DNA from: Dysgonomonas sp. HDW5A
Lineage (GTDB): Bacteria > Bacteroidota > Bacteroidia > Bacteroidales > Dysgonomonadaceae
NCBI RefSeq assembly: GCF_011299555.1
Contig: NZ_CP049857.1
Location: forward strand, 2,728,001-2,792,000
Direction of reading: 5' to 3'
Length of the DNA: 64,000 nt
Part shown: piece by piece, positions 35,708 through 37,177 of the stretch
Position numbering within the stretch: position 1 is the stretch's first letter
Layout of the letters: every line of letters begins with the position of its first letter
Program-made: the position numbers and the translations under genes
The notes under the pieces: generated by a model
Seen by the model: only the letters and a program-made list of their open reading frames with translations
The model's database searches: none
Told to the model about the DNA's origin: nothing

Positions 35708-35737
35708 TTGCATGATAGGAATAAATTTTTAACTTTG
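35708..35737 (+). promoter_or_regulatory. promoter of the GA-repeat leader
   Basis: TTG at 35708-35710, a 19-base spacer and TAACTTTG at 35730-35737, an excellent Bacteroidetes -33/-7 pair. The transcript should start near 35744, 23 bases before the leader ATG. Confidence 0.75.
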
Positions 35738-35766
35738 CCTCTGTAAAATAACTATTTACAGTGATA

Positions 35767-35907
35767 ATGACAACAAAATTAACAAACATATCTACTTGTA
35801 ATTATTTAAATTTTAACGGTTTAGATTTTGTGGTGTGCACTGAAATGTTAGAGAGAGAGAGAGAGAGAGAGAGAGAGAGAGAGAGAGAGAGAGAGAGAGA
35901 TAACTAG
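35767..35907 (+). CDS. leader ORF containing a (GA)25 microsatellite
   Basis: Starts MTTKLTNISTCNYLNFNG, then LDFVVCTEML, then eight Glu-Arg pairs encoded by the GA repeat, ending in Asp-Asn and TAG: 46 residues. No family is recognised. The repeat (35851-35900) sets the frame beyond it: 24 or 27 units give TAA at once, 25 gives the present stop, and 23 or 26 would fuse it to 118 more codons (to 36256). Two terminators follow. It is more likely a regulatory leader than a structural protein. Confidence 0.55.
   Translation: MTTKLTNISTCNYLNFNGLDFVVCTEMLERERERERERERERERDN
35851..35900 (+). repeat. dinucleotide microsatellite (GA)25
   Basis: 25 uninterrupted GA units inside the leader ORF. The length is directly countable in the sequence and is in the range where slipped-strand mispairing is frequent. 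Confidence 0.97.
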
Positions 35908-35935
35908 CAACCGTGCTGGTAATAAAAATATTTTA

Positions 35936-35958
35936 GGCGGATTTTTCCGTCTTTTTTT
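35936..35958 (+). terminator. leader intrinsic terminator 1
   Basis: GGCGGA / TCCGTC stem with a TTTT loop, then seven T. It begins 29 bases after the present stop codon of the leader ORF. Confidence 0.7.
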
Positions 35959-36120
35959 ATTATTGTGTATTTGTGACTCTAGAGTTTTTGTTTTAGAGTA
36001 TTTCCCCGATAATTATATTAATAGTTGTTTTGGCAAACACTTTCGTGTAGCTAATTTGTTTTTTTGTTGTCGTTCAAAGTCGGCACGAATGATTCGTTTG
36101 CTTATGGAACAACTGTGTCC

Positions 36121-36159
36121 GGCAGTGGCATGTAGTGATTACATGTTACTGCCTTTTTT
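36121..36159 (+). terminator. leader intrinsic terminator 2
   Basis: GGCAGT-ggc-ATGTA, GTGAT loop, TACAT-gtt-ACTGCC, then six T. It lies 137 bases before the first structural gene, and no other promoter is evident between. Confidence 0.85.
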
Positions 36160-36295
36160 CGTAAAAAATCATCAACACATCAGAAGTAAACCAAGGGTGA
36201 GAAACAATCTTTACCGCAAATTGCCTCATAAGCCTTGTGTATGCAGGCTAAACTAAGAATTTATTAAACTAAACACTAATAATATAAACATAGAG

Positions 36296-37177
36296 ATGAA
36301 AAAGAGAATCGGATTGAGAAACAAGTTATTATGGATATGGGGTTTATCTTCATTTTTGGTTCAGGCTCAAGTCGGCATAAATACGAAAAGTCCTCAAGGT
36401 ATTTTTCATATAGATCCCCTTTCGAACACCGCAGGGAGTGTAGGGCTTTTGGATGATTTTATAGTAGCAAATGACGGAAAGGGAGGCGTAAGCGTAGCAT
36501 TAGGAGCTACTCCCTCAGTAAATGCTTCTTTATCGATGAATGACCCGAATCAAGGTTTCTTACCCAACAGAGTCGAATTGACCTCGGTTACAGATAAAAC
36601 AACAGTACCAAATCCTGTTCAAGGAATGATTGTATATAATACAGGACGACGGGGAGTGTTTCCAGACAATACAATTCCCGGTATTTATGTCTATAATGGT
36701 ACTAAATGGCTCAGAATGCAGACAAACAGCTATACCGGGCTAAGGGAGAAAATACTATTGAAAACCGACTTGGTATTACAAGCCGCAAATGCTGCATCGG
36801 CTTTAGAGACATCAACTCTTGATTTTGGAAACATAACAATAAAAGAAGATGGGGGCTATGCTTTTTCTTTAAATCTGGATATGACGGCTACTTCGGGAAC
36901 AGAGTTAGGAGGCAATGCCTCAAACTCGATACTGAGGCCTCAGATATATTTATTTATATATAAGAAAGCAGCCGGAGAAACAGCTTTCTCTAAAGTTGAT
37001 GTGGCTGAACTCAATACACCTATATATAGAGGAACCAACCGCATAACGGCAAGTATCGTATTGGGGTGTACTGCTTATGCAGGCGATCAGATTCAAATAC
37101 GTGTGGGGGCTACGCTCTCACATACAACCGGAAAACTGAATAAAACATATACTTATACCAGCTATTGGAAAGTATAA
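36296..37177 (+). CDS. secreted beta-rich protein, paralogue 1 of 3
   Basis: 293 residues, signal peptide to LVQAQ. N-terminal segment VGINTKSPQGIFHID resembles the start of Bacteroidetes fibre-like proteins; middle FLPNRVELTSVTDKTTVPNPVQGMIVYNT and GIYVYNGTKWLRM; the C-terminal 150 residues are beta-rich and end YTYTSYWKV. Its two neighbours share this order, so these are tandem duplicates. Function unknown; surface or secreted location is likely. It lacks a lipobox and a Por sorting domain that I can see. Downstream of the GA-repeat leader. Confidence 0.7.
   Translation: MKKRIGLRNKLLWIWGLSSFLVQAQVGINTKSPQGIFHIDPLSNTAGSVGLLDDFIVANDGKGGVSVALGATPSVNASLSMNDPNQGFLPNRVELTSVTDKTTVPNPVQGMIVYNTGRRGVFPDNTIPGIYVYNGTKWLRMQTNSYTGLREKILLKTDLVLQAANAASALETSTLDFGNITIKEDGGYAFSLNLDMTATSGTELGGNASNSILRPQIYLFIYKKAAGETAFSKVDVAELNTPIYRGTNRITASIVLGCTAYAGDQIQIRVGATLSHTTGKLNKTYTYTSYWKV

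Follow-up and report, generated by a model that had tools for sequence, protein, structure and literature searches.

Which step of gene expression could be governed by a simple sequence repeat that lies in a translated leader is the question raised by a locus of Dysgonomonas sp. HDW5A, a bacterium whose genome is a single contig of 4.30 Mb. The locus is contained in a 64,000-nucleotide stretch of this contig (NZ_CP049857.1, positions 2,728,001 to 2,792,000 of the forward strand), which we refer to as the window and number from its first base. Here, a perfect GA repeat is embedded in a leader open reading frame (ORF) that is followed by two predicted transcription terminators and by three genes for secreted paralogues of one family. 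An initial interpretation of the bare sequence (hereafter, the sequence-only reading) had proposed a contingency-locus attenuator, and this proposal is now supported by comparative data that fit it: one frame is open, the other two are shut, and the phase of the repeat is skewed. The leader and others like it, found at more than 100 loci, are probably (we would put it at about 80%) phase-variable, repeat-gated and translation-dependent attenuators of transcription. Their multicopy nature, and the experimental precedent provided by pil1 and pil3 of Streptococcus gallolyticus, are points that the sequence-only reading could not show.

Leader anatomy and copies in Dysgonomonas

All features of the leader are located on the plus strand. 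A Bacteroidetes-type promoter (35708-35737), consisting of TTG (35708-35710), a 19-base spacer and TAACTTTG (35730-35737), precedes an ATG at 35767, and the earlier coordinates of both are correct to within a base or two. Twenty-seven codons (35767-35849) lie ahead of the repeat, into which the frame continues as LERERER..., and they include a small hairpin of the CTAAAT/ATTTAG type with TTTAAC in its loop (35805-35825), which is conserved in the alignment of copies. The (GA)25 repeat (35850-35900) lies within the ORF, about 110 nt downstream of the -7 box; its count of 25 perfect units is borne out by the sequence and by Tandem Repeats Finder (TRF), which reports a perfect AG tract of 25.5 copies with a score of 102, the runner-up among the 27 TRF rows of the window scoring 49.

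As the sequence-only reading had noticed, the position at which leader translation ends depends on the phase of the tract. At the current tract length, the stop is at 35907; the second off frame is closed by a TAA directly 3' of the tract, and both off frames are shut by the overlapping stops TAACTAG (35901-35907). The third frame stays open for 118 codons (35901-36256) and extends across both predicted terminators. The two hairpins were each predicted again: terminator 1, formerly placed at 35936-35958, is now located at 35935-35952 (hairpin and T tract, -9.3 kcal/mol), and terminator 2, which is followed by a T tract, begins at 36121 as before and extends to 36153 in the hairpin scan (36121-36159 as annotated, -20.7 kcal/mol). 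The distance between the leader stop and the first hairpin had been given as 29 bases and measures 27. A conserved motif, TTTTGTTGTCGTTC (36062-36075; core GTTGTCG, identified in the alignment of copies), lies between the terminators. No match to TAnnTTTG with up to one mismatch is present in 36160-36296, i.e. between terminator 2 and the first structural gene; a promoter immediately upstream of this gene was therefore rejected, in agreement with the earlier statement that no other promoter precedes 36296.

The arrangement is not confined to this locus. The sequence-only reading had suggested a search of related genomes for the same order of leader, repeat, terminator and gene, and this order was found at more than 100 loci. 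Searching with the leader DNA gave at least 22 matches in its own genome and at least 29-42 in each of four related genomes, many of the full-length matches beginning near the -7 box and finishing at terminator 2. A leader-peptide profile, built on 16 copies and applied at E up to 0.01, returned 18 matches in the own genome and 23, 27, 45 and 26 in the four other Dysgonomonas genomes (139 in total, a few of them interrupted by contig ends). The same profile search had no match in a sixth genome (62% complete), where three DNA matches cover the repeat alone and where a second class of leaders, described below, is found. An exact core pattern was present in five of 101 genomes of the family, an apparent restriction to a single genus that was corrected by a looser pattern. 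Six loci of the genome scan outside Dysgonomonas have unrelated surroundings, and viral contigs gave no match to the repeat pattern.

Two sets of copies underlie the counts that follow. Eight of 107 copies were left out (contig ends, N runs, no core motif), giving a set of 99. Separately, 13 of the 139 profile matches with less than 260 nt downstream or no tract were omitted, and from the remaining 126, seven leaders whose longest frame is below 240 nt and two with N runs were removed, giving 117 leaders, which fall into 105 clusters when grouped at 90% identity (ungapped, over 200 nt). Within the first set, the ATG is found exactly 27 codons before the repeat in 84/99 copies, and TAnnTTTG occurs upstream of the leader start in 91/99, mostly 36-40 nt before the ATG (7% in mononucleotide shuffles). 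The leader frame is open across its last 26 codons in all 99 copies; of the other two, one is closed in all 99 and one in 96. The hairpin before the repeat is similarly constant: of 98 unique sequences, 97 have TTTAAC at one and the same column; pairing of the hairpin is 93.6% (at most 59% when the pairing is slid), and both sides have changed in five of seven pairs. TAnnTTTG also appears directly before the repeat in 72/99 copies, with TTG located 17-24 nt upstream of such a match in no more than five; we read this sequence as part of the conserved hairpin, though it could also be an internal promoter.

Several other types of control were considered for the leader and rejected. A scan with Rfam gave no listed match in 35700-36300 at E up to 5, which speaks against a known riboswitch or RNA family. 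An invertible promoter was rejected given that 35300-36320 holds just two weak inverted-repeat pairs (13-14 nt), one of which (35679-35692 and 36202-36215, 86%, imperfect) does span the promoter. Amino-acid-sensing attenuation of the trp type by a codon run did not fit either: the Glu-Arg stretch encoded by the GA tract is the sole codon run, and leader codons differ among copies.

Reading frames, tract phase and a second leader class

Downstream of the repeat, one frame remains open for at least 240 nt in 95/99 copies, as compared to 2.5% of first-order Markov simulations scored in the same way by the longest of three frames, and a chance ORF was rejected on these grounds. Both off frames are shut within 30 nt of the repeat in 93/99 copies, and TAACTA[AG] is found within 40 nt in 53/99. 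Between position +30 and the end of terminator 2, the longest frame contains four stops in 6041 codons, compared to 325 in 6057 and 352 in 6034 for the other two, and 4.4-6.2% of the codons in the antisense frames of the same stretch are stops. Choosing the longest of three frames favours the readthrough frame in such counts, and the test was rerun with the frame fixed beforehand from the first 60, 90 or 120 nt after the repeat alone, leaving out copies with an ambiguous frame or without a strong terminator; the result was the same. When the first 60 nt set the frame, 77/80 copies are open to the end of terminator 2 (3/80 for each other frame), with three stops in 5134 codons versus 274 in 5150 and 309 in 5126.

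The frame that avoids stops is also the one that covers the predicted terminators. At least one hairpin with a T tract is present in 90/99 copies versus 6/99 Markov controls, and 135 of 139 predicted terminators are located wholly within the longest frame (one of 139 in the second longest). A predicted terminator lies wholly inside the readthrough frame in 88/99 copies, and the frame passes the last strong one in 78 of 82. Terminator 2 carries compensatory changes among copies; given that the hairpins were chosen because they fold, these changes alone, and not the pairing percentages, are informative.

The tracts of the 117 leaders range from 9 to 60 nt, with a median of 21 units. Three leaders are in the readthrough phase, and the other two phases hold 64 and 50. 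Compared to an expectation of one third, this corresponds to a binomial p of about 1e-16, with copies that are not fully independent; by genome, the counts are 0/17, 2/21, 0/23, 0/38 and 1/18. One of the three readthrough-phase leaders is of the SusC type (see below) and the other two have 13 and 8 units; two more leaders in this phase have a longest frame below 240 nt and stand outside the 117. The sequence-only reading had named an invariant repeat length as an outcome that would speak against it, and the unit number differs in nine of ten clusters of near-identical leaders; the differences seen are those between copies and between species. Together, the differing unit numbers and the count of 3/117 indicate that the repeat changes and that the readthrough phase is avoided in these assemblies.

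In the mechanism that we propose, RNA polymerase would start at the TTG/TAnnTTTG promoter and a ribosome would translate the 27 codons of the leader and enter the GA tract. Two of the three phases would be OFF: the ribosome would halt shortly past the tract (in most copies within 30 nt), leaving the downstream hairpins free to fold, and transcription would stop short of the surface genes. In the third phase (ON), translation would continue across the hairpins to or into the first structural gene, allowing transcription to proceed. Replication slippage in the tract would shift cells between these states, so that the family of leaders would produce surface proteins in random combinations. What we infer from sequence features in this mechanism is that transcription terminates in vivo, that readthrough depends on the ribosome, that the tract slips in culture and that the two expression states exist.

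Leaders of a second kind (class B) were recovered by the looser repeat pattern, which is present in 19 of 31 searched genomes, mostly of another genus of the same family, and is far commoner than the same pattern read backwards. Class B leaders end in an ENLxVxxILERER-type peptide, a resemblance suggesting that they may be homologous to the Dysgonomonas class; it is these leaders that the sixth genome carries. From the matches listed, we chose 40 regions in four genomes of that genus, and four of 39 tracts without the motif were left out, leaving 35. By looser criteria, 27 of the 35 have a terminator-like hairpin (versus seven Markov controls), and the longest frame reaches the first terminator in 26 of the 27. 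Twelve of the 35 are in the phase of the longest frame, meaning that class B has no skew towards OFF. The genes downstream, as flagged by motif, are SusC-like in 11 cases, TIGS-type secreted in 11 and unclassified in 13. One class B leader, L331 of genome G029, has a GA tract of 156 units, far beyond the other class B tracts. Across the order, a long GA tract of this form, counting both strands, is present in 33 of 392 sampled genomes; of the loci found in this way, 26 outside the family were inspected, of which one, L300, is loosely similar and none carries a flag for the leader motif.

Competing explanations

A number of observations weigh against repeat-gated attenuation. Nine of the 99 copies have no predicted terminator by the criteria used and 11 have none wholly in frame; the longest frame is shorter than 200 nt in three, and a stop precedes the end of terminator 2 in two copies that have the majority frame. 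In 23/90 copies, including that of the window (27 nt), the later off-frame stop is less than 28 nt from the first hairpin. In 10/27 class B leaders, the second-longest frame, too, extends to the first terminator. Moreover, neutral slippage predicts one third of leaders to be ON and almost none are, which requires the assumption that ON was selected against in the sequenced clones. Finally, the conserved motif suggests that a further component is involved.

This last point is at the centre of one alternative, in which termination is governed by a trans-acting factor bound to the inter-terminator motif, with the repeat merely tuning the outcome. The core GTTGTCG is present in 87/99 copies, with flanking columns mostly 0.9-1.0 identical (its own seven columns are invariant by construction, GTTGTCG having been the search key), and its distance to terminator 2 is nearly fixed, its start lying 55-56 nt ahead of the terminator in 63 of the 73 copies measured. 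In its own genome, the exact 14-mer TTTTGTTGTCGTTC occurs at eight places that are all within GA leaders, which is a point in favour of such a factor; these eight, however, are only 8 of the 18 leaders. Likewise, TTGTTGTCGTT, an 11-mer that is part of TTTTGTTGTCGTTC, was found in none of the 40 class B loci, which nevertheless keep the repeat, the frame and, mostly, the terminator. A factor of this kind also leaves the frame evidence unexplained, and we regard it as an improbable substitute for gating by the repeat. The motif itself may be a binding or pause site; pairing between it and the start of the leader was rejected, as it is no better than with partners swapped between copies.

Control by translational coupling, rather than by antitermination, has about the same small chance of being the whole explanation. 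Here, the readthrough ribosome would deliver ribosomes to the start of the gene, or the ON frame would encode a fusion protein. Such a role is consistent with the position of the frame. Among 113 leaders, 60 have a frame that runs into the first family ORF and another 41 have one ending 0-42 nt short of it (101/113 together, with ORF starts set at the first ATG); in the class B leaders L330 and L341, the frame ends 4 nt past the gene start. However, a fusion would be in frame in just 32 of the 60 overlaps and out of frame in the other 28, and coupling does not account for the hairpins with T tracts that lie inside the frame in most copies. It may well act in addition to attenuation.

Less likely still is that the readthrough ORF encodes a functional small protein (leader, Glu-Arg linker and a tail of about 100 amino acids), which would itself be the phase-variable product and to which the terminators would be incidental. 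The long frame is open in nearly all copies and its pN/pS of 0.67 is below the 0.87 and 0.84 of the other frames (125 close pairs), which is in favour of a protein, yet this constraint at the amino-acid level is weak. Relative to a conserved anchor, seven copies have a shifted frame, which is open in every one of them, and six of the seven are closed in the majority frame; in the shifted copies, DNA of the same kind specifies another amino-acid sequence. That shifted frames stay open implies that the feature kept is the passage of ribosomes in one tract phase, more than the peptide made, and we have rejected a tail under clear amino-acid selection on the basis of these shifted frames and the weak constraint. 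The leader peptide has no protein-level conservation either (pN/pS 0.81 in frame, 0.56 and 0.78 out of frame), and the frequent entry of the frame into the next gene, in frame or out of it, argues in the same direction.

That the GA tract is neutral or a promoter spacer, and the frame pattern a by-product of element duplication, can practically be dismissed: the copies are related and share ancestry, but 105 clusters among the 117 leaders have kept one frame open, tract phase is strongly skewed, stop density is unequal between frames, and the tract lies well downstream of the -7 box within an ORF.

Known systems, downstream genes and neighbouring features

Repeat-gated attenuation has a precedent in S. 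gallolyticus, where GCAGA repeats in the leader peptide set whether ribosomes disturb a terminator, as shown genetically for pil1 and described for pil3 (PMC3894217). In that system, a stop before the terminator is associated with mostly low expression and a frameshifted, longer leader that reaches or passes the hairpin with high expression; the wild type is mostly in the low state (PMC3894217). In both systems, the repeat is located in a leader-peptide ORF upstream of surface genes (PMC3894217). The window contains the corresponding elements: a short repeat in a leader ORF with a unit that is not a multiple of three; a predicted intrinsic terminator between leader and structural genes, also seen in 90/99 copies; and, as read from the sequence, a repeat number that decides between a stop before this terminator and readthrough. 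The systems also differ. For S. gallolyticus, a five-base unit, one terminator and two loci are described (PMC3894217). Dysgonomonas, in contrast, has a GA unit, a Bacteroidetes promoter, a conserved motif and predicted terminators that number up to two or more, with 18-45 leader matches in each genome and a readthrough that would pass the terminators and reach the gene. By these features, the Dysgonomonas leaders would work like those of pil1 and pil3; this is an analogy, and common descent is not claimed.

Two further systems share the scale of the repertoire. In Mycoplasma gallisepticum, vlhA genes form a large surface family, each with a short GAA repeat upstream, of which few are expressed together. 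The vlhA repeat acts through its length at the promoter region, whereas the Dysgonomonas repeat lies in a translated leader before terminators. Closer in phylogeny, the SusC/SusD and capsule loci of Bacteroides fragilis undergo invertase-controlled phase variation by DNA inversion (PMC11868660), and are a case in the Bacteroidales of phase variation in large outer-surface repertoires. The switch described there is inversion of DNA (PMC11868660); that of Dysgonomonas would be a repeat in a reading frame.

Our literature search for Dysgonomonas and phase variation found nothing, and among the matches listed, the mechanism was seen solely in the S. gallolyticus work and in a review naming it. Judged by the literature searched, the new aspects are the scale, the phylum, the two leader classes, the passage through terminators to the gene, the skew towards OFF and the conserved motif. 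If our interpretation is true, repeat-gated attenuation, seen at two streptococcal loci, has been scaled to dispersed control of a surface repertoire in a family of Bacteroidetes, which would gain a route to surface variation besides DNA inversion. A wider extrapolation is tentative, and we think it somewhat more likely to be wrong than right: tens of GA-gated attenuators in two similar classes could form a genome-wide regulon controlling secreted and SusC-like repertoires in this family, nearly silent in Dysgonomonas (0-2 readthrough-phase leaders per genome), with cells showing, through slippage, no more than one or a few members at once and a shared trans-acting factor reading the motif ahead of the main terminator. 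The leader set flags this motif as an unexplained conserved sequence element, and its more than 100 naturally occurring versions of a single attenuator could be used to study the effects of translation over terminators in this phylum.

Downstream of the leader, the three secreted paralogues recognized by the sequence-only reading are encoded on the plus strand from 36296 onwards: protein 1 (36296-37177, 293 amino acids), paralogue 2 (37222-38064, 280 amino acids) and paralogue 3 (38103-38984, 293 amino acids). The family, named here after its QVGINT N-terminus, has no match in Pfam, NCBIfam or PHROG; the C-terminal half of protein 1 is weakly similar to TNF ligands (E about 0.05). A gene of this family is found within 4 kb downstream in 113 of the 122 leaders with room downstream, and also upstream, on either strand, in 43 of the 122, which is expected wherever operons form arrays. 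Five of the nine leaders without a family gene precede a protein of 1016-1066 amino acids that we read as SusC-like from its size and, in three of the five, from a SusD-like neighbour (N-termini read by eye). In these three (L069, L086 and L243, all Dysgonomonas), the leader is followed by a SusC-like gene of 1016 amino acids and then by the SusD-like gene; their readthrough frame is shorter (112 nt) and, in the two that were mapped, ends inside a predicted terminator.

On the other side, the leader promoter adjoins a divergent operon on the minus strand (32977-35335) with CsgG-like, unassigned, DUF4810 and GNA1162-like lipoprotein genes. Beyond the surface operon, a cobalamin riboswitch (RF00174, 92 bits, 39679-39885, minus strand) is located beside ThrE-like exporter genes; the interval from the riboswitch to the end of the surface operon has no minus-strand ORF of at least 60 amino acids, and the riboswitch is apparently an orphan. 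Relatives of the secreted protein also occur in a different setting: genome G090, from yet another genus of the family, has 37 matches to it, with no dinucleotide repeat in the 15 regions examined (L250-L264), and six of seven upstream regions compared contain a GTCACT...AGTGAC palindrome near the gene start.
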